Virus record (IMG/VR): IMGVR_UViG_3300045996_001270
Coordinates: 1 to 21,284 of that record
Reading direction: 5' to 3' (one strand)
Origin: a virus
DNA length: 21,284 nucleotides
The position numbers were made by a program, and so were the translations under genes. Shown piece by piece: positions 5,368-17,805 of this stretch. The notes beneath the pieces are model-generated. The model was not told the origin of the DNA and ran no database searches. It was given only the letters and a program-made list of their open reading frames with translations. Position 1 is the stretch's first letter. Every line of letters starts with the position of its first letter.

Positions 5368-5414
5368 GGGGATGACCTTTCTCGGTTGTCGAGTGCTGAT
5401 GGGAGCGGGAGGCG

Positions 5415-5428
5415 GCCCCCGAGGGGGC
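5415..5428 (-). other. GC-rich hairpin after the lysozyme gene
   Basis: GCCCCC and GGGGGC face each other with almost no loop, so GCCCC/GGGGC with a CGAG loop is the likely stem. It lies in the 74-nt gap between the lysozyme stop and the next ATG. There is no T-tract after it on the minus strand, so an RNA processing or stability element fits better than a terminator. Confidence 0.35.
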
Positions 5429-5441
5429 GCGCCGCGGTGGG

Positions 5442-6083
5442 CTAGGAGAGCAGGTCCCTGAGGAGGTTCAGGAAGCTCACCAGCTTGGAGGGCCGCTTGG
5501 TGGGCGGAGCTGGCAGCTCTTGGCCCGTGAGGATCAGGGAGCGCTGAGCATCGTCGACCGCGAACTCGGCGAGCCGGTTCATCCAGCCCTTGCGGAAGGC
5601 TTCCTGGCTGGGCTTGCGGGCGATCAGGTCGAGGTAGAACTGGCGGCGCCGCTCCACGAGAGCGCGCATGAAGTCGTCACCGACGTTCACGAGCAGCTCG
5701 GCGGCGCGAGAGGCGGTCGCCGGGCCGCACCTTCCGTCGACCTCCAGGGGCCTGGTGTCGCGCTGGGTGCAGACCTGTTGGACGAACCGGATGGCCTGGG
5801 CGGGGCCGTGGTTGACGGCACAGTCGAAGACGAATGACTGGATCTCGGCGGGGAGCAGGTTGATCCGCGGCGCGAAGTAGTAGTTCTGCGCGTAGATCGT
5901 CCGAGCTTCCTGCTTGGTCATCGTGCGGACGTCATCGGCTGAGCAGGATGCCAGCCCGCGGTAGGAGGCGAGAGTGGCGTGGGTGATGCCGAAGTTGGTC
6001 GGGCCTCCTCGATCGGCGGGGTGGTTCACGTAGCCACCCTCACGGCGGAGGATGTCGTCGATCATCTGGTCGACCGTCTTCAT
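5442..6083 (-). CDS. GH108-family peptidoglycan hydrolase (endolysin)
   Basis: A 213-aa muramidase-type endolysin. The N-terminal signature ILRREGGYVNHPADRGGPTN followed by FGIT is typical of glycoside hydrolase family 108, with the catalytic Glu in the EGGY segment (residue 16). The C-terminal half (VDGRCGPATASRAAELL onward) resembles the PG_binding_3 domain usual in this family. There is no signal peptide, so release through a holin is expected. ATG at 6083 overlaps the endonuclease stop (ATGA). The locus between gp3 and gp4 is where T7 has gp3.5, an unrelated amidase that also inhibits T7 RNA polymerase. Confidence 0.9.
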   Translation of the reverse strand: MKTVDQMIDDILRREGGYVNHPADRGGPTNFGITHATLASYRGLASCSADDVRTMTKQEARTIYAQNYYFAPRINLLPAEIQSFVFDCAVNHGPAQAIRFVQQVCTQRDTRPLEVDGRCGPATASRAAELLVNVGDDFMRALVERRRQFYLDLIARKPSQEAFRKGWMNRLAEFAVDDAQRSLILTGQELPAPPTKRPSKLVSFLNLLRDLLS

Positions 6084-8120: not shown

Positions 8121-8136
8121 AGGTGGATTTGATCAG
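8121..8136 (-). promoter_or_regulatory. 13-bp repeat copy at the RNA polymerase stop codon
   Basis: Coding-strand CTGATCAAATCCACCT overlaps the RNA polymerase stop codon (TGA). It carries one extra A between TGATC and ATCCACC, so spacing is not fully fixed. The next gene starts 67 nt downstream. Confidence 0.5.
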
Positions 8137-10622
8137 ACGAAGAAAAAGTCGGACTGCTTGATCAGCTCAAGGTCCAGGGTGCCCATCGCCGGGGGCTCCG
8201 GGAGGGGCGCGCCGAGGGCGGCCTCGACGGTGGCCTTGAAGTCAGCCAGGACGTCGTTCTCCTGGTAGAGGTCGACGAACGCCTGGCGCAGGCACTGCCC
8301 GAGCATCTCAGCGTCCGCCGCCGGGCAGCCGTAGCTGTCGTGGACCATGGCGAACTCCTCGATGCCGTTGTCCGCCGCATAGCAGACCGAGAGCTGGAGG
8401 GCGGCGGCGTCCATCGAGTGGACGAAGTTGGGGGCCAGGCCGTTGGCCTGCTCCCTGGCGTTGATGGTCGGCAGGTACTCTTGGAGGACCGGCTTGATGA
8501 TCCTGTCTCCCAGGCGGGTGTCCACCTGGCGGGAGGTCACGTCGTAGCAGGCCTGGTGAACGGGGAACCCCACCGGGGTCACCCAGTCGAGAGGCAGCTG
8601 CTTCTTCGACGTGGCCTGGGCGACCTTCTTCAGCCAGTCCATCGCCTTCCGAGCAGCCACCACCACCTCCCCGATCGCGGTCCAGACGAGGCGCGTCAGG
8701 AAGAGGGTTGGCTCCAGCAGCTCACCCATCGGCCACGGCGAGACGTAGCTCGGGTCGCGCAGCTTGCGCGCCTCCACTTCCTCCTCGACGTAGGCCTGGA
8801 TGTACTGACGGCAGGAGTGGCGGGTGCCGCTGTAGGGCACCACCATGACCGGCCGCTTGGTGGTCTTGCGGGTCACCCCGAAGTCCAGCCACTGCTGCGC
8901 CAGCAGACGCTCGGCTTCCCCATCGGCATCAGTTGCCGGCGTGGATACGATACGGCGCAGCTTATGCAGCGTGACGTTGGCCACCTCCTGGTAGATGTCC
9001 GAGGGCTTGTCGGCCGGCACCAGGTTCACCGCCTTGCCACCCCTCGGGTCGCGCAGCATGGCGGAGTAGTGCTGGAGGCCGTTGCAGCTGCCGTCCAGGG
9101 AGACGGGCAGGGTCGAGACGAAGCCGTAGCCATGGGCCTGGAAGGCGGCCCACTCGAAGCAGAAGGCGAGGAACTGCCAGGGCTTGTCGGCCTCGGTCCA
9201 CCACCGCTCCGAGATGGGGTCGGAGGCGCAGGCGAGGATCTTCTGCTCGTGCTCCTGCACCCAGGCGATGCGCCCGTCCAGGCTCACCTTGTCGTAGCCG
9301 AAGATGCCGGCGCCGTGGATCATGAGCCAGCCCGCTGCGATCGGGTCGTTGATCGGCTTGCCCTTGGCGAAGGTCAGCAGCCCCTTGGCCAGGTCGTTGC
9401 CCTGCGGCGTCAGGAACAAGGGCATGGGGTACACCCGCCCGCGGAAGTCGAGCTGGTGCGGGAAGTAGATCGCCAGCTCGTCCTTGAACTTGTCGGCGAG
9501 CCAAAGGATCTTCCCAGCCTGGAGCCGCTTCGACCTGATCTTGGCGTTGTAGCCGTGGATGCGAGCGGCGTCCCGCTTCCAGGCCTTCTTGATCTCCTCG
9601 TCCCGGAGGTGCTCGTGGTCACCCTTAGGCTGCTGTCCGCAGAACGGGCAGGGAGGGAGCGCCACGTCATCCCGAGGCGGGAGCTTGCCGACCGTGATGC
9701 CGGCATCCCAATACCAGTGGGCCACAGCCAGCACGTCCTGCCGGATGCGCCAGCCAGTTCTGTCGATGCGCTCGACGGCCTCCCGCACGGTCGCCATGTC
9801 CTCCCATCGGTCCTTGATGGGCTTCAGGTGGGACGAGGAGGTCTTGACGAAGTGCCGGCGGACGAAGTGCGAGTAGTAGCCCCCATTGGTCGGGCTCGAC
9901 CAGGGCTTCGGCTCGACCAGCATCGGCAGGAGCATGGGGGAGAGCAGCTCGCAGCGAGAGACCTTCGAGTTGATCCAGTCGAGAGCCTTTGCGGTGGCCT
10001 GGAGGTAGAGGACGCTCTTCTTCGACCGGTCCCACACCATCTCCATGGACGCGAAGCCGGTCGTCTCGATCATCATGTCGAGACAGGCCATGCCGAGGTG
10101 CAGCCGCTCCTGGTGGGACAGGCTGTCGAACTCGGTGCCGTACTTGTTGGCGGCGTAGGTCATGACCTTCTCGCGGTAGCCCCGGTGCGAGGAGCGGCGG
10201 ACGTTCTCGGCCACCTTGTTGTAGAGCTTGGGCTGCTGCTGCTCGAAGGCCTGGTAGCGCAGCTCGTTCTCCAGCTGCCCGCCGATGGCGATGGCGACCT
10301 TGGTGACCGGCTGCGTGCGGGTGATCCCATCGAGCGTGACCTTCATGATGATGAAGGCCGCCACCTGAGGGTCGATCAGGGACAGGTGCTTGACTGCGCT
10401 GTGCCGGCGACCCCGGCCGCCACTCATGGCCTTCTCGACGAAGGCTTCGATCGCCTTGGCCAGCGGCTCGATCGCCTGGCTGACCATCTGCAAGCCGTAG
10501 GGGGTGGTGCTCTCCTCGTGGGTGTCTCGGGCTCGGGTGATGCGGGCTCGGAACTGCTCGGTCCCGAGACCCTGCATCTCTTCCTCAAGCTCGGCTTGGC
10601 GCTGCATCAGAGCGTCGTTCAT
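8133..10622 (-). CDS. T7-like single-subunit DNA-directed RNA polymerase
   Basis: 829 aa, against 883 in T7. Hallmarks are intact: LDFRGRVYPMPLFLTPQGND, SLDGSCNGLQHYSAML with catalytic D510 (T7 D537), GVTRKTTKRPVMVVPYSGT with K589 and Y597 (T7 K631, Y639), PNFVHSMDAAALQLS, and AMVHDSYG with D762 (T7 D812). The C-terminus SDFFFV parallels the T7 SDFAFA foot. The promoter-recognition loop (about 692-718) differs from T7, so it should read a different promoter. Residues 325-338 contain CPFC and HEH, a CxxC-x7-HxH pattern not present in T7 RNAP. The enzyme would transcribe the replication and structural genes. ATG 10622 lies 30 nt from a repeat copy. Confidence 0.98.
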   Translation of the reverse strand: MNDALMQRQAELEEEMQGLGTEQFRARITRARDTHEESTTPYGLQMVSQAIEPLAKAIEAFVEKAMSGGRGRRHSAVKHLSLIDPQVAAFIIMKVTLDGITRTQPVTKVAIAIGGQLENELRYQAFEQQQPKLYNKVAENVRRSSHRGYREKVMTYAANKYGTEFDSLSHQERLHLGMACLDMMIETTGFASMEMVWDRSKKSVLYLQATAKALDWINSKVSRCELLSPMLLPMLVEPKPWSSPTNGGYYSHFVRRHFVKTSSSHLKPIKDRWEDMATVREAVERIDRTGWRIRQDVLAVAHWYWDAGITVGKLPPRDDVALPPCPFCGQQPKGDHEHLRDEEIKKAWKRDAARIHGYNAKIRSKRLQAGKILWLADKFKDELAIYFPHQLDFRGRVYPMPLFLTPQGNDLAKGLLTFAKGKPINDPIAAGWLMIHGAGIFGYDKVSLDGRIAWVQEHEQKILACASDPISERWWTEADKPWQFLAFCFEWAAFQAHGYGFVSTLPVSLDGSCNGLQHYSAMLRDPRGGKAVNLVPADKPSDIYQEVANVTLHKLRRIVSTPATDADGEAERLLAQQWLDFGVTRKTTKRPVMVVPYSGTRHSCRQYIQAYVEEEVEARKLRDPSYVSPWPMGELLEPTLFLTRLVWTAIGEVVVAARKAMDWLKKVAQATSKKQLPLDWVTPVGFPVHQACYDVTSRQVDTRLGDRIIKPVLQEYLPTINAREQANGLAPNFVHSMDAAALQLSVCYAADNGIEEFAMVHDSYGCPAADAEMLGQCLRQAFVDLYQENDVLADFKATVEAALGAPLPEPPAMGTLDLELIKQSDFFFV

Positions 10623-10669: not shown

Positions 10670-10682
10670 CACACGAATGGCG

Positions 10683-10901
10683 TTACGCCAGGTCGGCCGG
10701 CCGCGAGCGCAGGCAGCGGACCTTGGTGTAGTGCCCTTCGAGGAGCCGCTCGGGGTACTGCGCGGCGGAGAACTGCCCGTACTGGAGGCACACGGCCGGG
10801 CTCGGGGCGGGCTCGGCGTACCAGTAGTCGGTCGCCGTGTTAGGCGTGCAGTCACCCCCGAGGATGCCGAGGGCGCAGATCAGGACCTGGACGGTGAACA
10901 T
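10683..10901 (-). CDS. Small exported or membrane-anchored peptide, 72 aa
   Basis: ATG 10901 has GAGAGG upstream. The N-terminus MFTVQVLICALGILGGDC is hydrophobic without a basic n-region and ends in LGGDC, so it is either a weak signal or anchor. The rest is polar with four Cys in total (including TPNTATDYWYAEP then VCLQYGQ, and KVRCLRSRP). It lies between the winged-helix gene and RNA polymerase, in the slot where T7-like phages carry small host-takeover genes. No family recognised; competing frames in this interval read as shadows. Confidence 0.55.
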   Translation of the reverse strand: MFTVQVLICALGILGGDCTPNTATDYWYAEPAPSPAVCLQYGQFSAAQYPERLLEGHYTKVRCLRSRPADLA

Positions 10902-10930
10902 GAGACCTCTCGATGTTGGAAGAGATGGCG

Positions 10931-10946
10931 TGGTGGATAGGTCAGG
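10931..10946 (-). promoter_or_regulatory. 13-bp repeat copy after the winged-helix gene
   Basis: Coding-strand CCTGACCTATCCACCA includes the winged-helix gene's TGA stop and lies 29 nt before the next ATG at 10901. Context TTCGTGCGGCCTGA resembles that of the RNA polymerase copy. Confidence 0.65.
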
Positions 10947-11214
10947 CCGCACGAAATCCAGCCGCAGCAGCCAGCGTGCGGGCGCGGGCGCTGAGCTTCT
11001 CCGCCCGAGAGAGCAGTGACCGGTAGGCGCGGTCCAGTTCCTCGGCCGTCGCGGCGGCAACCAGCTTGTACCCTCGGCTCTGTCCGATGATCAGGTGGCC
11101 GTTCTCCTCAGCCAGCTGACGGATCTCGCGCGGGGTGATGCCGGTGCTGGCCTCGATCTCGGGAGCCGGATGCCACGCACCATCGGCTAGGCAGTCGAGC
11201 AGTGCCTCCTTCAT
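10942..11214 (-). CDS. Small winged-helix/helix-turn-helix protein, 90 aa
   Basis: MKEALLDCLADGAWHPAPEI is followed by EASTGITPREIRQLAEENGH, a helix-turn-helix with recognition helix TPREIRQLAEENG, then strand LIIGQSRGYKLV as the wing. The C-terminal part is helical and Ala/Arg-rich (SRAEKLSARARTLAAAAGF). ATG 11214 is chosen because AAGGAG lies 7 nt upstream. It is the gene nearest the tRNA/att region on the RNA polymerase side. A regulator of the early-to-middle switch, or a repressor acting on the 13-bp repeats, is possible but unproven. Confidence 0.75.
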   Translation of the reverse strand: MKEALLDCLADGAWHPAPEIEASTGITPREIRQLAEENGHLIIGQSRGYKLVAAATAEELDRAYRSLLSRAEKLSARARTLAAAAGFRAA

Positions 11215-11249
11215 GGGGCATCTCCTTGGGTGGGAACGGAGGGGGAACG

Positions 11250-11267
11250 CGCAACAAATCCGCAACA
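11250..11267. repeat. Two CGCAACA repeats left of tRNA-Leu (putative integrase arm sites)
   Basis: CGCAACA occurs at 11250-11256 and 11261-11267, both in plus orientation, 11 bp apart. The second is part of GCAACATCGCC (11262-11272), which recurs exactly at 11525-11535 on the other side of the tRNA. Confidence 0.45.
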
Positions 11268-11416
11268 TCGCCAATCCACCAATGCACTCTGTTGGCAAGG
11301 CGCATAGTAGCGGGCACGACGATGCGGCACCGGCTGGAGCCGGCGGAAAACCTACGTTAGGGGATCAGTTGGAGGGGTGCGTAGCTGGGCGCGACAGATT
11401 TTGAGGCTGTCGAGCG

Positions 11417-11503
11417 TGGTGCCGGGGACGGGAGTTGAACCCGTAAGCCCTTGCGGGCGCTGGATTTTGAGTCCAGTGCGTTTACCAGTTTCGCCACCCC
11501 GGC
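11417..11503 (-). tRNA. tRNA-Leu (anticodon CAA)
   Basis: 87 nt including an encoded CCA end. The acceptor stem GCCGGGG pairs perfectly with CCCCGGC, with discriminator A. The anticodon arm is CTGGA-CTCAAAA-TCCAG, giving anticodon CAA. There is a long variable arm, as in class II leucine tRNAs, and a T arm with GTTCAACTC. The D-arm segment AAACTGGTAAACGC differs from the AATTGGTAGACGC common in bacterial tRNA-Leu, suggesting a phage-evolved copy. tRNA-Leu genes are frequent integration targets of tyrosine integrases. Here phage genes lie on both sides. Confidence 0.93.
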
Positions 11504-11504
11504 C

Positions 11505-11549
11505 CGCAACATTCGCATCCGAATGCAACATCGCCGCAACAACGCAACA
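11505..11549. repeat. Four YGCAACA repeats right of tRNA-Leu (putative integrase arm sites)
   Basis: Copies begin at 11505, 11524, 11535 and 11543, all in plus orientation, matching the two copies on the other side of the tRNA. Direct-repeat arms on both sides of a tRNA-type core are how tyrosine-integrase attP sites are built. The rest of the interval to the PIN gene (11550-11681) shows no gene. Confidence 0.45.
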
Positions 11550-11681
11550 TGCCACGGCGGGGCAGCAGATCAAGTCTGTTCGCGGGTGGTGGCGAGTACC
11601 TCAGGAGACACTCGCCGCAATACATCGACAAGCGCATCGGGCATTTCCGGTCCCATGCGTCCCATCCGTCGCACCGGGCGC

Positions 11682-13061
11682 CTACGCTACAACGCTGTCG
11701 TGAACAGAGGCTCCTGATCCCGGTTCATCCTCCCACAGCCACGGGATCGGCCCTTGGACCGTCAGGTGCCAGTATCCTCGTTGCTCCAGATCGGAGAGGA
11801 GAGCCTTCCATGCCGCCAACCCCGGCACTCTACCTCTTATGGAGCGATCCGCCATCTTGCCATCTGACTCAGCAGAATAACGGAACTCAAACCCATGGCT
11901 AGCAACCAGCCTGCGCAACTCCGCACATTTTTCATCTCCTGGCCCCCCCATTTCAAAGATATCCACCGCGAACTCGTCACCATCGGTTCTGATATACTTG
12001 GCGACGCGGTCCTGAAACGGATAGCCGGCCCCCTCCGCCCATCTCGCCTCCAGCTCACTTAAAAAAACGTTCGTCACGTGCGAATTGTCTCTCATTCCTT
12101 CACCCCGGACCTTGAGAATACCAGGCCACTCGCTAGAGTGAAGCGTGCCCGACAAGCGGAACTGTAGTTCAAATGCGATCTGCATGTCATCAGGTGCCTC
12201 AGTTCGAAACACCCGTCCATCGATAAAGTGAGAAACCCAGAAAGAGGCTGATGGTCCGTCATAGTGCTCACGCACACAGCTGTTCAGCCACTGCTCTATT
12301 TGAGCAATCATGCCTTCACTTTCATCGTGAGACATCGCGGTCATGGCATTGAGCGCCTTCAAGCAGTCGACAAGAGTCGAGTAGGCCTTCAGATGATTGT
12401 TCGAGATGACTAATGTTTCCGAGAGTCTGGAAGCTAAAAGCTTTGCTCCGGCATGCGCCTCTTCGGAAAAGCTATCATCCACTAACTTTTCTGAAATTCT
12501 ATTGCTTCCATCATTCTTGTCAACAAAAAAGGCATCATCCCCCGTTACGAAATACACGTCATGATCTGCAAGAAGAGAAACGGCAGCTTCCCATATGAGG
12601 GTGTCTCGAAATTGTTCTATTTCCTTTCCGCTTCTCTTATCCTTGTGATGATTTGGTGGAATTCTCTCTACGACTTTCGTTATCGCAGCTCGAACTTGAT
12701 CCAGTGTGAGGGGGACCAAAAGTAAAACATCTTGCATCTCAGCCAAAGCGAAGCCAAAGCCTTGTTCTACGGTATGCTCGGATGGCAAACCGCCAGAAAT
12801 GTCCAAACCAGAGAAGTTTCTTAAATAGCGAGCATTGTCTCGAATGTGCTTTAAAGCAGTGCGTGCTTCTTTTTGCGCTTTTGCTCTTGTCTCTGCTTCG
12901 ACAACCTCCGGCAGTGCAAGCTGGAGGCGGTTGGATCGAAGATGATGCAACAGCGCGGCGCCCGGCCCCGACCGGAGTAAATGCTCTTTTCGCCAGACAC
13001 TGCTGTCTAGGACAACGACGGCCGACGATCGTGAGCCTGGTGCTGCCATGGCGGCTTTCAT
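11682..13061 (-). CDS. PIN-domain (DUF4935-like) putative ribonuclease, 459 aa
   Basis: The N-terminal third reads as a PIN nuclease of the DUF4935 type: VVVLDSSVWRKEHL (D19), LALPEVVEAE (E52/E55), FRDTLIWEAAVSLL (D153) and DVYFVTGDDAFF (D175/D176). These are the acidic residues expected to bind metal. The remaining 270 residues match no family I recognise and may sense or bind a partner. The gene is much richer in A/T than its neighbours (two 60-base lines hand-counted at 33% and 45% GC), pointing to recent transfer. It sits between the att/tRNA region and the integrase, a typical cargo site. A role in defence or superinfection exclusion is inferred. ATG 13061 and the internal ATG four codons later are both possible starts. 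Confidence 0.75.
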   Translation of the reverse strand: MKAAMAAPGSRSSAVVVLDSSVWRKEHLLRSGPGAALLHHLRSNRLQLALPEVVEAETRAKAQKEARTALKHIRDNARYLRNFSGLDISGGLPSEHTVEQGFGFALAEMQDVLLLVPLTLDQVRAAITKVVERIPPNHHKDKRSGKEIEQFRDTLIWEAAVSLLADHDVYFVTGDDAFFVDKNDGSNRISEKLVDDSFSEEAHAGAKLLASRLSETLVISNNHLKAYSTLVDCLKALNAMTAMSHDESEGMIAQIEQWLNSCVREHYDGPSASFWVSHFIDGRVFRTEAPDDMQIAFELQFRLSGTLHSSEWPGILKVRGEGMRDNSHVTNVFLSELEARWAEGAGYPFQDRVAKYIRTDGDEFAVDIFEMGGPGDEKCAELRRLVASHGFEFRYSAESDGKMADRSIRGRVPGLAAWKALLSDLEQRGYWHLTVQGPIPWLWEDEPGSGASVHDSVVA

Positions 13062-13138
13062 CTGCGGTTGCGCGGCTGAAGCTATCTAATACTTTGCGCA
13101 CCAGCTTGTCGAGCACCGGCGGCGGCGGCTGTCAGGGC

Positions 13139-13160
13139 AAAAAACCCGCCGGGTGGCGGG
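13139..13160 (-). terminator. Rho-independent terminator of the integrase operon
   Basis: On the minus strand CCCGCC-ACCC-GGCGGG is followed by TTTTTT. This is a textbook intrinsic terminator downstream of the integrase and its small companion gene. It should insulate them from the PIN gene, which starts 78 nt further on. Confidence 0.88.
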
Positions 13161-13188
13161 CTCGGGCAGGCGGGGAGGTGGGGAGGGA

Positions 13189-13257
13189 TCAGCGGGCGGC
13201 GGCGCGGCACTCCTGCCAATGCTTGCGGACGCTGGCGGGTGACGTGTTAGGAGCCAC
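13189..13257 (-). CDS. Possible 22-aa peptide with GTG start
   Basis: The frame from GTG 13257 reads VAPNTSPASVRKHWQECRAA and ends AR. It overlaps the preceding small gene by 11 nt and ends before the terminator. The basic, structured look suggests coding, but no clear ribosome site is present. It may be chance. Confidence 0.25.
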   Translation of the reverse strand: MAPNTSPASVRKHWQECRAAAR

Positions 13258-13363
13258 GTGCTGGCCCGAGCCTGGTAGACTTGCCCCATGGGGAGGGCTT
13301 CTCGATGTACCAGAGGAACAGCACCACGACGATTGCGGTCAGCAGGAAGTTGGTCGGGGTCAT
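13247..13363 (-). CDS. Single-pass membrane peptide, 38 aa, coupled to integrase
   Basis: MTPTNFLLTAIVVVLFLWYI is a transmembrane segment followed by a short basic tail (EKPSPWGKSTRLGPARGS). Its ATG overlaps the integrase stop (ATGA) and GGGAG lies just upstream. It is co-transcribed with the integrase and ends before the terminator. The function is unknown; a holin-like or exclusion peptide is conceivable. Confidence 0.6.
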   Translation of the reverse strand: MTPTNFLLTAIVVVLFLWYIEKPSPWGKSTRLGPARGS

Positions 13364-14391
13364 GCGTCTCCCTCAAGGGCCTGGACCGCAGCCAGCAGGT
13401 TGGCCGGCGCGAGGTGCGCGTAGCGCATGGTCACCTGGATGGTCTTATGGCCCATCCATTCCTGGACCACCTTCAGGGGCACGCTCCGCTGGACCAGCCG
13501 GCTGGCGCAGGTGTGGCGCAGGGAGTGGGGCACGAACTGCTTGTCCTCGCCGAGCCCCATCGTGACCTTGGCCCTGTCCCACGGGCGGCGCAGCCAGTCG
13601 TGGTCGTAGGGAAACAGGTTGGTGACCCCGGTGCCGGACGCCGAGTAGCTGACCATGTAGAGCCGGCGCTTGATCACCTCGGAGGCGCGCTTGGTCAGCG
13701 GCACCGAGCGGGGATGATCGGCCTTGTTCTCCCACACGTGCAGGAGCCGCTGCCGCTGGTCGACGTCCCGCACCGTGAGACGGAACAGCTCGCCGACTCG
13801 GAGCCCGGTGTCGATCAGAACGGTGACCGCATCGACGTGATCAGGCAGGGACCACTGCTCCAGCAGCCCGAGCAGGACGCGCTCCTCGTCCGCCGTGAGG
13901 TAGCGGATGCGACCGACCCCCTCCCGCAGGCGGGGCAGCTTGGGCTTGAAGGCTAGGCCTCGCCGCTCGACGGCCACGGTCAGCATCTTGGACAGGGCGG
14001 CCATCTTCCGGTTGATGGTGCCGTTGGCCAGCCCCTCGTCCTTGAGGTCCTGCACGTACTCGTCGAGCGCATCGGTGGTGATGTGATCGAGCCGGGTCTC
14101 GCGGCCGAAGTGGTCGAGCGCAGACTGCGCGTTGACCTGGGCGGTGTGTCCCCCTCGGGTGTCAGCCCAGGCAACACGCATGGTGGTGTCGAGCGCCCGC
14201 TGGAGGGTCCACACCTCGGCGGCCGGGGCCGAAGGCAGGCCAGCCTTCAGCTCCCGGTGCTTCGCGAGGGCCTCTTCGAGGGAGTGGCAGGTGGCGGTCT
14301 GGCGGGCTCCCCCTACCGAGACGTCGACAAGGAAGCTGTCTCCTCGGGCACGAATGCCACGGGGAAGTCGGAGGCCGGTGACGACAGCCAT
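13360..14391 (-). CDS. int: Tyrosine-family phage integrase, 343 aa
   Basis: A complete site-specific recombinase. Residues 1-50 resemble an arm-binding domain (RGIRARGDSFLVDVSVGG), 60-150 the SAM-like core-binding domain (LDEYVQDLKDEGLANGTINR), and 165-343 the catalytic domain. Catalytic residues are all visible: R198 (DTGLRVGELFRL), K223, H289-x-x-R292 (VPHSLRHTCASRL), H315 (WMGHKTIQVT) and Y324 (MRYAHL). ATG 14391 is chosen over longer frames because GAGGAG precedes it. It overlaps the upstream membrane gene by 79 nt. It would integrate and, with a directionality factor, excise the phage; the tRNA-Leu 1.9 kb away is the likely target. Confidence 0.96.
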   Translation of the reverse strand: MAVVTGLRLPRGIRARGDSFLVDVSVGGARQTATCHSLEEALAKHRELKAGLPSAPAAEVWTLQRALDTTMRVAWADTRGGHTAQVNAQSALDHFGRETRLDHITTDALDEYVQDLKDEGLANGTINRKMAALSKMLTVAVERRGLAFKPKLPRLREGVGRIRYLTADEERVLLGLLEQWSLPDHVDAVTVLIDTGLRVGELFRLTVRDVDQRQRLLHVWENKADHPRSVPLTKRASEVIKRRLYMVSYSASGTGVTNLFPYDHDWLRRPWDRAKVTMGLGEDKQFVPHSLRHTCASRLVQRSVPLKVVQEWMGHKTIQVTMRYAHLAPANLLAAVQALEGDA

Positions 14392-14759
14392 AGGGCGCTC
14401 TCCTCGACTGGTAGTGTGGTGTCCGCAAGGCTCTCGTCGGATACTGCCTCTACCGCGGCGGTCTGGACAGCGGCGAGGGCCACGAGGGCGGCGGCGGACG
14501 CCTTCGGCACGGAGGGGATCAGGCTCGTAAGGGACAGGCCCTCGAACCACAGGAAGCCGAGGGCGGCGGCGGCGGTGTTGAACCCTTTGCGCGTGATGCG
14601 CTTGGCACTGCTCGCGATCAGGTGCAGGCGACCGACCCACAGGAACAGTTCGCCGTTCTCCCGATAGGCCTCGATGAACTGCCTCCCCGGTTCAGTGGGG
14701 TATTCGGCGAATACAGCGCCTAGCTTGCGGATCTCCTTGTAGATCGAGAACATCTTCAT
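14313..14759 (-). CDS. Putative membrane protein in the lysogeny operon, 148 aa
   Basis: The N-terminal 60 residues are mixed alpha/beta (MKMFSIYKEIRKLGAVFAEY, LFLWVGRLHLIASSAKRITR). Two hydrophobic stretches follow (AAAALGFLWFEGLSLTSLI and SAAALVALAAVQTAAVEAV), then a Ser/Glu-rich tail. Its ATG overlaps the MarR-like stop (ATGA), and its last 79 nt overlap the start of the integrase. It could be a superinfection-exclusion or immunity protein, since it lies between regulator and integrase, but no family is recognised. Frame support: coupling plus sensible composition over most of its length. Confidence 0.6.
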   Translation of the reverse strand: MKMFSIYKEIRKLGAVFAEYPTEPGRQFIEAYRENGELFLWVGRLHLIASSAKRITRKGFNTAAAALGFLWFEGLSLTSLIPSVPKASAAALVALAAVQTAAVEAVSDESLADTTLPVEESALWLSSPASDFPVAFVPEETASLSTSR

Positions 14760-15106
14760 GCTTCCCCGTTTGCTATCGCCATCAGGCGATCTTTGAGTTG
14801 CCTGCCCCTCGGTGTCAGCGTCACGATCTTGCGGCGCCGCTCGTAGGGGTCCTCAGTTGCCTTCACCAAGTCCAGTCCAGGTCTGCGTAGTCGGTGTATC
14901 TTGCTCAGCGCCGAGACGTTTCTCGACATCGTCGACTGAGCAACACCGAGGGCATCGGCTATGTCCTTCATCGTGCAGCCCTCATGCACCACGATGTAGA
15001 GGAATGTGTTGACGGTCTGCGAGGGCAGCTCTTGGTCGAGCTTTCTGAACTCCTCGATGGCCTTGAACATATTCCAGATGGGGGCGGTCCCATTCGTCTT
15101 CGCCAT
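14756..15106 (-). CDS. MarR-like winged-helix transcriptional regulator, 116 aa
   Basis: The order of elements is that of MarR proteins: N-terminal dimer helix (MFKAIEEFRKLDQELPSQTV), helix TFLYIVVHEGCTMKDIADAL, recognition helix GVAQSTMSRNVSALSKI, and a wing ending in RRRKIVTLTPRGRQLKDRL. The wing sequence VTLTPRGR is characteristic of the family. ATG 15106 has GGAGG six nt upstream. As the first gene of the operon with a membrane protein and the integrase, it is the best candidate for the lysogeny regulator; no CI- or Cro-like gene is visible in the window. That role is inferred. Confidence 0.85.
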   Translation of the reverse strand: MAKTNGTAPIWNMFKAIEEFRKLDQELPSQTVNTFLYIVVHEGCTMKDIADALGVAQSTMSRNVSALSKIHRLRRPGLDLVKATEDPYERRRKIVTLTPRGRQLKDRLMAIANGEA

Positions 15107-15901: not shown

Positions 15902-16062
15902 GTGGGCTCTCCGATGGTGGTGGTCAGAACGGCGTTGGTGAGGGCTGCCTCAAGCGCAGCCTCGTGCTTGGCGAAGCAGCCGGGTGAGAGGCGCTCGGTG
16001 ACGTACCAGCCCTCCCCTTCCATCTTGTCGGCGTGGATCAGGCAGCGCTCATGCAGCTCCAT
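15898..16062 (-). CDS. Hypothetical protein, 54 aa
   Basis: Starts MELHERCLIHADKMEGEGWY and continues VTERLSPGCFAKHEAALEAA. The ATG at 16062 has GAGAGGATC upstream and the stop overlaps the next ATG (ATGA). A longer frame to 16140 exists but its extra part has poor composition. Small soluble protein of unknown role. Confidence 0.6.
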   Translation of the reverse strand: MELHERCLIHADKMEGEGWYVTERLSPGCFAKHEAALEAALTNAVLTTTIGEPT

Positions 16063-16267
16063 GGTCGGGGTGATCCTCTCGGCGTGGGTACAGGAGGTTG
16101 GCCGCCATGCTCTCCAGCCCGTGGCGGACCAGGAACTCAATCGCGATGGCGTTCTCTTCGATGCGCCTGCCGGTCGATCGCGCCAGCTGGCGGAGCTTGG
16201 CGGGCTTGCTCGGAGTCTGGCTCAGCAGGCGGACGAGCAGTGCCGGCAGGATGTCGGCGGCGGTCAC
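16049..16267 (-). CDS. Hypothetical protein, 72 aa, GTG start
   Basis: Reads TAADILPALLVRLLSQTPSK after the GTG, then a basic helical segment (LRQLARSTGRRIEENAIAIE). GTG 16267 overlaps an upstream TGA as GTGA, the same coupling used elsewhere in the operon. The last 14 nt overlap the following gene. No family recognised. Confidence 0.5.
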   Translation of the reverse strand: MTAADILPALLVRLLSQTPSKPAKLRQLARSTGRRIEENAIAIEFLVRHGLESMAANLLYPRREDHPDHGAA

Positions 16268-16437
16268 TCCCCGTACCGCTCGAAGGTGGCGGTCACCATG
16301 AGCCGACCGAGCACGAAGCTCGGCGAGAACGAGACCTTCTTGCCCGGCCCGTAGGACCGGCCGCACCCAGGCCTCGAACATTATGAAGCTCTGGAGCCAG
16401 CGGCGGGGCATCCAGGTCACGTGGACGGTCAGGACAT
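16264..16437 (-). pseudogene. Small gene with apparent compensating frameshifts
   Basis: ATG 16437 has GAGGAG at good spacing but its frame stops at once (ATG TCC TGA). The next frame immediately continues with protein-like LTVHVTWMPRRWLQSFIMFE and AWVRPVLRAG. The original frame then resumes with KKVSFSPSFVLGRLMVTATF and ERYGE, ending at 16264 in phase with ATG 16437. One base lost near codon 3 and one gained at GGGC near 16335 would restore a 57-residue protein. This could be real damage, sequencing error or a recoding signal. The GTGA overlap with the next gene supports the stop being genuine. Confidence 0.35.
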
Positions 16438-16439
16438 GG

Positions 16440-16648
16440 TCACTCCTCGGTCTCGTGGAGGGCGTAGGAACCTGCTCCAGACCTGGCGCCGCTCGGGCGA
16501 ACCGGGCGCCAGACCTTGGCGGCCCCCTGCCGGATCAGGACGTCTTCGCTGAGATCCTGCGCCGGATCGATCGCTTGCGAGGGCCGCCCATGGTAGCGGC
16601 CTGACCGGAGCAAACGATGGCGGTCGGAGCCGAGGGGAGGAGAACCAT
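16440..16648 (-). pseudogene. Possible small gene with a frame change at an ATCG repeat
   Basis: The frame from ATG 16648 reads MVLLPSAPTAIVCSGQAATM then GGPRKRSI and ends soon after. A different frame continues DPAQDLSEDVLIRQGAAKVW and runs to a stop at 16440, 2 nt before the next start. Adding one ATCG unit to the GCGATCGATCCG run would join them. Alternatively the downstream part begins at TTG 16613 (57 aa). Low certainty. The adjoining gap up to the plus-strand gene at 16824 shows no gene. Confidence 0.28.
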
Positions 16649-16823
16649 TCGCCGAAGGTTCGAGGAGCCCGCCAGGAGGACCTCAAGGTAGACCACGGAA
16701 ACGGCCTCTCGCCATCCACGCCCGCCCGTGATCCACCTCCGGCGGGATTTCCGGTTGACGAGCCTCCCTTTCAGGAGCATCGTTGATCCCGAAAGCGGAG
16801 GTCATGTCGGTGGAGATGAGACC

Positions 16824-17099
16824 ATGAGGCTCGTGCTCGTAACCTTCTCCTTGATTGTTCCTCTTGTTGCCGTCGCCACGGAAGCAAACGCTTTGTGCAA
16901 CCGCAAGGTTGGGAGCCAATGCGTAAGTGCCACCCTCTCTCGAGGATGGAACTCTGATTGCACTGCTCGCTGCATCGTCACCGTAGTTCCCATTGGGGAC
17001 AACGGAGAGGAGAAGGAAGTTCAAGTTATCTTCGATCCCGACGCTTCAGAAGCTGACATCCCAAATGAAATAGATCTTCGAAAGGAGAAGCAGGATTAG
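16824..17099 (+). CDS. Small exported Cys-rich protein, 91 aa (moron candidate)
   Basis: It lies on the opposite strand to the phage operons. A signal peptide (MRLVLVTFSLIVPLVAVATE, cleavage likely after ANA) precedes four cysteines (LCNRKVGSQC and SDCTARC), which would form two disulfides in the periplasm. A beta-rich end follows (CIVTVVPIGDN, KEVQVIFDPDASE). A GGAG lies 9 nt before the ATG. The base composition is lower in GC than in the minus-strand genes. Orientation and composition suggest lysogenic expression from its own promoter. No family recognised. Confidence 0.65.
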   Translation: MRLVLVTFSLIVPLVAVATEANALCNRKVGSQCVSATLSRGWNSDCTARCIVTVVPIGDNGEEKEVQVIFDPDASEADIPNEIDLRKEKQD

Positions 17100-17147
17100 C
17101 TTTGTATGAAAGGTAGGCGCAGCCACACCATTTCATAGAGCTAACGC

Positions 17148-17185
17148 GCCGAGCGGCGTGTAAGCAGTGTTATCCGCCGCTCGGC
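17148..17185 (+). promoter_or_regulatory. Perfect 11-bp stem-loop abutting a ribosome-binding site
   Basis: GCCGAGCGGCG (17148-17158) and CGCCGCTCGGC (17175-17185) are perfect complements with a 16-nt loop. AAGGAG of the next gene begins one base after the stem. There is no T-tract, so translational control, transcript protection or a repressor site fits better than termination. Confidence 0.55.
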
Positions 17186-17198
17186 AAGGAGACTCATC

Positions 17199-17432
17199 AT
17201 GCCCCAAGATGCTTTTGTTGAAAGCAAAGCGATAGGCAAAACGGACGAACCGGATAGCCCATTTCTGCTGAGTGGCAATCCTCCAGAAGAACCCGACCCA
17301 TCGTCCTGCACCTGCTCGTACCAGGGTCAGCTATATAGCTGTGGAGCGATCATCTGCAGACGGGACCGGAACATGGTTTATCAGTGTACGAATAGGGGCT
17401 GGGCAAATACCGGTAGAACGTGCGTGGACTAG
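17199..17432 (+). CDS. Small Cys-rich protein, 77 aa (moron candidate)
   Basis: ATG 17199 follows AAGGAG. The N-terminal half is acidic and polar (DEPDSPFLLSGNPPEEPDPS). The C-terminal half carries six cysteines (SCTCSYQGQLYSCGAIIC, then VYQCTNRGWANTGRTC). No signal peptide is visible, so a metal-binding or secreted-by-other-route protein is possible. It forms a plus-strand pair with the exported gene 99 bp upstream and ends facing the minus-strand early genes. Family not recognised. Confidence 0.6.
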   Translation: MPQDAFVESKAIGKTDEPDSPFLLSGNPPEEPDPSSCTCSYQGQLYSCGAIICRRDRNMVYQCTNRGWANTGRTCVD

Positions 17433-17460
17433 TGCGTTCGGAGGGTTCAGTTCCTCGAGG

Positions 17461-17491
17461 GTCTGTGCTATGCTGCGGGTATGGCACAGAC
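17461..17491. terminator. Inverted repeat between convergent genes
   Basis: GTCTGTGC and GCACAGAC pair perfectly around a 15-nt loop, overlapping the stop codon of the last early minus-strand gene and following the plus-strand gene. The position suits a bidirectional terminator, but there is no T-tract on either side. Confidence 0.3.
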
Positions 17492-17611
17492 GGTCCTTGC
17501 CCTGGTTTCGGCTGAGGATCGCGCGCGGTTGGCGGCGTGGGCCTCGAAGGATGGGCCCTCAGCGGCAATGCGCCGCTCCAGGTCGCGTATGAAGCCATAG
17601 CTGCCGATCAT
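17468..17611 (-). CDS. Hypothetical peptide, 47 aa
   Basis: MIGSYGFIRDLERRIAAEGP is followed by a basic Ala/Arg-rich end (SSAETRARTVCAIPAA). The start follows the previous stop as TGATCATG, the same spacing as in the next gene pair. It is the last gene of the early run before the opposite-strand morons. No family recognised. Confidence 0.5.
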   Translation of the reverse strand: MIGSYGFIRDLERRIAAEGPSFEAHAANRARSSAETRARTVCAIPAA

Positions 17612-17613
17612 GA

Positions 17614-17805
17614 TCAGGCCTCCGCGTTGAAGACGGTGCCGTTGTCGCGGACGCCGAGCCCGCACACGTCGAGCGCCTCGACCAGTTCCTCGCGGGTGTG
17701 GAACAGGCGCTTGCCGCGTTGGTAGCGGTCGAGCGCCAGGATGTCGGTGCCGCCGATGGTCACGCACCAGGCGTCATTGGCCGGCAGATAGCGGACGCGG
17801 ATCAT
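17614..17805 (-). CDS. Hypothetical protein, 63 aa
   Basis: MIRVRYLPANDAWCVTIGGT continues DILALDRYQRGKRLFHTREE with a helical LVEALDVCGLG. It looks like a compact alpha/beta domain. The arrangement TGATCATG links it to the gene before it. Frame and codon use support coding. Unknown role in the early region. Confidence 0.6.
   Translation of the reverse strand: MIRVRYLPANDAWCVTIGGTDILALDRYQRGKRLFHTREELVEALDVCGLGVRDNGTVFNAEA

Follow-up and report, generated by a model that had tools for sequence, protein, structure and literature searches.

A candidate single-gene PIN_12 defence in a prophage cargo slot of a temperate T7-like phage

The DNA analysed here, hereafter the window, was the 21,284-base IMG/VR virus record IMGVR_UViG_3300045996_001270, a fragment of a T7-like phage. 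On its minus strand, a MarR-like regulator (14756–15106; phrog_9665, 3.6e-35; MarR_2, 5.5e-06, just under the cut-off) lies upstream of a tyrosine integrase (13360–14640, with the homologous part from about 14397; PF00589, 5.7e-27). These are followed by a 459-aa gene with an ATG start (11682–13061), a complete tRNA-Leu(CAA) identified by ARAGORN (11417–11503), and a T7-like RNA polymerase (8133–10622; phrog_414, 4.6e-266). Profile searches also detected a T7-type primase-helicase, a family A DNA polymerase, a gp2.5-like single-strand binding protein and a GH108 endolysin. A T7-like RNA polymerase combined with an integrase and tRNA-Leu module is of the temperate Autographiviridae type, and the set of integrase, MarR-like regulator and tRNA-Leu is that seen in LUZ100, Pasto and other temperate T7-like phages (PMC10134795). 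Among named phages, the closest RNA polymerases shared just 38–41% identity, approximately, and belonged mainly to phages of Roseobacter, Rhizobium, and Pseudomonas. No prophage copy of the phage was found when genome contigs were queried with the RNA polymerase.

The window was compared with three sister phages (L002, L003, and L004), with RNA polymerase identities of 83–86% and integrase identities of 85–88%. In all three blastn comparisons, homology ended at 13365–13373, the 3′ end of the integrase, and restarted at 11584–11593, just ahead of the tRNA-Leu. The sequence between these breakpoints (11586–13364, not assigned to a strand) is missing from the three sisters and thus forms a variable segment, or cargo slot, whose place is fixed in genomes that are collinear elsewhere. 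A second variable interval was observed between the tRNA-Leu and the RNA polymerase gene (10682–11220 in the window and 8750–9658 in L004, where it holds a Bro-N antirepressor-like gene). Conservation among the sisters was also weak at 16000–17800, which includes an AT-rich part (17001–17500, 52.8% GC) and is probably another accessory region.

The tRNA-Leu(CAA), presumed to be the attP core, is found at the same place in L002, L003, and L004. Five CGCAACA repeats surround it on the plus strand (11250, 11261, 11505, 11535, and 11543, spanning 11250–11549). This heptamer occurs 9 times in the contig vs. 3.2 expected, with 5 copies within 300 bases at the tRNA and 4 in the other 21 kb, and the repeats look like integrase arm sites. 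From this arrangement, we infer an attP at the tRNA-Leu(CAA) with the CGCAACA repeats on its flanks. The tRNA-Leu(CAA) of L003 (9710–9797) differs from those of the other phages in its anticodon stem and variable arm, so L003 may depend on a different host or a different tRNA allele.

Between the integrase and the 459-aa gene, an intrinsic terminator was found at 13139–13163 (minus strand), with the sequence CCCGCC-ACCC-GGCGGG-TTTTTT and a folding energy of −16.9 kcal/mol (z = −2.37; 6 of 200 shuffled sequences folded equally well). This hairpin was not listed by a consensus terminator scanner. The hairpin with its T-run agrees with the original prediction that the gene is set apart by the integrase terminator. 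A 38-aa ORF predicted to have a single transmembrane stretch (13247–13363, minus strand) overlaps the integrase stop codon (ATGA). Small membrane ORFs right after the integrase were also observed in L003 (57 aa, 9459–9632) and Pasto (37 aa), and the same scan showed none in L002 and L004.

The 459-aa gene is the only plausible coding gene of any size in the slot. Its product matched PF16289 (PIN_12, DUF4935) over the full profile at residues 16–178 (12528–13016, minus strand), with an E-value of 8e-13 and a score of 49.6 bits, above the curated cut-off of 32, and the match was recovered again in a genome search. The assignment to a DUF4935-like PIN family, proposed earlier from the sequence, thus holds. 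The low GC content noted at the same time was also confirmed, being 51.8% in the gene vs. 64.8% in the contig. At third codon positions, GC was 0.52 vs. 0.72–0.93 in the core genes of the phage, which indicates that the PIN_12 gene is a recent arrival. No model in PADLOC or NCBIfam matched the protein and no PHROG match was significant; the full-length protein had no close homolog in viral contigs, bacterial genome contigs or phage records, and no match in a PDB sequence search. The PIN_12/DUF4935 family is itself largely unstudied, with one passing mention found in a partial search of the literature.

Alignment of 13 family members showed three conserved acids, which are the predicted metal ligands. 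These are D19 (codon at 13005–13007), E57 (12891–12893), and D153 in an RDTLIW motif (12603–12605), all on the minus strand. The last two were present in 13/13 homologs and D19 in 12/13, the sole exception being a homolog whose annotated ORF starts late. Of the acids originally proposed, D19 and D153 were retained, and E52/E55 gave way to E57, as the position of E52 is acidic in 8 of the 13 members and that of E55 in one. At position 175, five of the 13 members have D and most of the others N, and D176 is not conserved. The predicted metal site has three acids kept in 12 to 13 of 13 members, with a fourth position that varies between D and N.

The C-terminal region (residues 196–459, 264 residues; 11685–12476, minus strand) had no detectable relative among the 12 other family members by phmmer and hhalign and no plasmid match by tblastn, consistent with its earlier description as a long uncharacterised part. 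By comparison, the PIN parts of family members aligned at 6e-8 to 4e-11, and in hhalign that of the window aligned with plasmid homologs at 3.8e-11 across residues 15–196. AlphaFold models of the full-length protein and the PIN part had pLDDT values of 38 and 48, respectively, too poor for use. With these models, Foldseek returned nothing at E ≤ 0.001, and the returned list was meaningless. A HEPN-like string in the C-terminal part, RLVASH, was dropped because a polar residue, usual at the second position, is missing.

Homologs of the PIN_12 gene were detected by tblastn on plasmids of Rhodococcus, Mycobacterium, Nocardia, Arthrobacter, Curtobacterium, Streptomyces, and Escherichia albertii, with approximately 25–30% identity over the PIN part. 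All inspected homologs were solo genes, mostly of 360–480 aa, and no constant neighbour gene was present beside the 11 plasmid homologs inspected. The PIN domain is common to these relatives, which for the most part show no relationship in their C-terminal parts. When viral contigs were scanned for PIN_12 motifs, two matches proved to be true relatives (L032 and L033), and three other matches (L031, L035, and L036) had no PIN gene at the matched site. In E. coli genomes, nothing resembled two of the homolog genes at the DNA level. The homolog in L033 (5998–7353) has a C-terminal RNATLHG, which by eye only resembles the HEPN RxxxxH motif, and is possibly a two-nuclease protein. Near other homologs were a type I restriction-modification (R-M) system (L018), AbiEi/AbiEii directly upstream (L025), AbiU (L027), and, in the viral contig L032, a pair of KAP NTPases matching the PADLOC candidate PDC-S49. 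These defence neighbours are raw observations, given without a chance rate for plasmid genes. Confinement to housekeeping contexts, which would have spoken against a defence role, was not seen among the homologs sampled, all of which came from plasmids and mobile contigs.

Known defence systems were found at the same place in relatives of the phage. The slot of L002 holds Vsr, a C5-methyltransferase and a 396-aa gene that matches no family and presumably encodes the restriction enzyme, which may be an undescribed one. In L004, the slot combines Vsr with an HTH-C5-methyltransferase and a third gene that matches REase_II weakly (1.6e-4). The two sets occupying this one slot (L002, 6010–8987; L004, 5709–8437) look unrelated, and each includes a Vsr gene of its own. 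The slot of L003 is empty, having just about 340 bases. In the distant Mesorhizobium phage Lo5R7ANS, a BglII restriction endonuclease (PF09195, 3.2e-50) and an MT-A70 methylase lie between the integrase and the tRNA-Leu. Other occupants were an SPFH membrane protein in Pasto, KilA-N in S-SRP02, and a CI-like repressor in ProddE; R-M systems were therefore present in 3 of the 6 other filled slots. LUZ100, BB8, RHEph01, RHEph21, TRX32-1, YIMV22061, HTVC200P, L013, and L017 had no sizeable slot gene, and a PIN gene was absent from the slot in all named temperate T7-like phages compared. Since the same slot holds R-M systems in relatives, the proposal that the gene is defence cargo beside the presumed attP is well supported by position, with shared breakpoints and R-M systems in two sisters and Lo5R7ANS. 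In Lo5R7ANS (L037), a gene annotated as putative RtcB, an RNA ligase, was also observed between the tRNA-Leu and the RNA polymerase gene (5398–6051); repair of RNA would naturally offset a defence that cuts it.

Most likely, this single foreign gene protects the infected bacterium from other phages. More specifically, we consider the PIN_12 gene to be horizontally acquired anti-phage cargo encoding an autoinhibited, infection-triggered nuclease of a temperate T7-like phage, with a probability of roughly 0.55. The gene would occupy a slot of exchangeable content, bounded by the integrase on one side and the tRNA-Leu attachment site on the other, and would lie at the extreme end of the integrated element in the prophage state. 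As the terminator insulates it from the integrase transcript, it likely has its own promoter, with the lytic genes silent, and would be active in the lysogen. The N-terminal PIN domain is the putative effector, a nuclease predicted to depend on Mg/Mn bound by D19, E57, and D153; its substrate is most likely RNA, a preference over DNA that is predicted from the PIN superfamily in general. The C-terminal 264 residues, a candidate sensor or autoinhibitory part, may hold the nuclease off and may sense an invading phage through one of its components or effects, upon which RNA cleavage would halt growth or phage replication. Superinfection exclusion and abortive infection are both conceivable outcomes, and nuclease activity is itself a prediction. 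Solo genes on mobile elements in which the nuclease stays constant and the C-terminal part changes are compatible with an effector whose sensor can be replaced. Points against the defence reading are that the protein belongs to no PADLOC, NCBIfam or PHROG family, that the slot of some other phages holds genes that are non-defence or unclear, and that neither a whole-protein homolog nor a usable structure is available.

Several other explanations are possible for the gene. The best-known PIN domains are those of VapC toxins, and homologs are frequent on plasmids, one of them directly after an AbiEi/AbiEii pair that is itself of the toxin-antitoxin kind; the protein might thus be a solo VapC-like toxin serving addiction or prophage maintenance, with an antitoxin that is unlinked or acts in cis, perhaps as the C-terminal part. 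We regard this as unlikely, because no small antitoxin gene lies in the slot, the plasmid homologs share no constant neighbour, and proteins of such length with long C-terminal parts are unlike VapC. The R-M systems in the slot of the sisters would also be left unexplained, although R-M systems are addictive too.

The gene could alternatively serve the phage during the lytic cycle, by host mRNA shut-off or counter-defence, rather than protect the lysogen. It shares its orientation with the lytic genes, and its place after the early MarR-integrase unit and before the RNA polymerase gene could allow early expression by read-through; LUZ100 does show read-through past its integrase terminator (PMC10134795). 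However, the gene is missing from sisters with core genes of 83–86% identity, which have R-M systems there instead, its composition is foreign and host-like, and a terminator stands between it and the integrase unit; such a role is accordingly quite improbable. A degenerate or neutral passenger, picked up by chance in imprecise excision next to attP, appears the least probable explanation. Host DNA can enter slots next to attP and no close homolog testifies to selection, but the ORF is full-length (459 codons) with its catalytic acids intact, and R-M systems in three independent slot occupants are not expected of random host DNA.

Anti-phage cargo being the preferred reading of this gene, it is possible, though rather doubtful at this stage, that PIN_12 forms an undescribed modular one-gene defence family with a constant nuclease and a rapidly exchanged C-terminal sensor, and that the integrase/tRNA-Leu slot of temperate T7-like phages is a general, likewise undescribed, reservoir of systems of this kind. 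T7-like phages have long been regarded as strictly lytic, and no description of a defence slot in temperate T7-like phages was found in a partial literature search. Should the slot prove general, a survey of what it contains in temperate autographiviruses would be a direct route to new anti-phage genes, and a slot common to temperate T7-like phages may be a more useful find than the gene. For PIN_12/DUF4935, a candidate function open to testing is provided.

LUZ100, Pasto, and Lo5R7ANS resemble this phage in having a MarR-like regulator, integrase, tRNA-Leu, and RNA polymerase in the same neighbourhood. LUZ100, RHEph01, RHEph21, and BB8 differ in having no cargo in the slot, and LUZ100 and TRX32-1 in having the tRNA on the other side of the integrase. 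The defence hotspots of P2 and P4 (PMC9122126) likewise have interchangeable anti-phage genes at one set position, there in a temperate phage or a satellite; those hotspots adjoin cos in another phage family, whereas the slot here adjoins the attachment site. The actinobacterial plasmid PIN_12 proteins, such as WP_157180218.1 of Rhodococcus pDK4, share the N-terminal PIN_12 domain, the invariant E57 and D153, the solo arrangement and a long C-terminal part, but identity is about 25% in the PIN domain only and the C-terminal parts are not detectably related. VapC toxins are PIN proteins with an acidic metal site, as is predicted here, but they are short and have a VapB partner, and no VapB-like antitoxin is adjacent here. 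The nearest tested analogue, compared by description and not by sequence, is DS-3 from DefensePredictor, a one-protein PIN system that protects against phage, requires its catalytic residues and has no antitoxin (PMC13092281). Both are single proteins with a PIN domain and no cognate antitoxin, and autoinhibition is proposed for both. The PIN domain of DS-3 is split between the N- and C-terminus, whereas PF16289 here is continuous over residues 16–178, and membership in DS-3 is therefore not claimed. Position and company support defence cargo, and the PIN_12 gene is a candidate for a single-gene PIN defence in a prophage slot.
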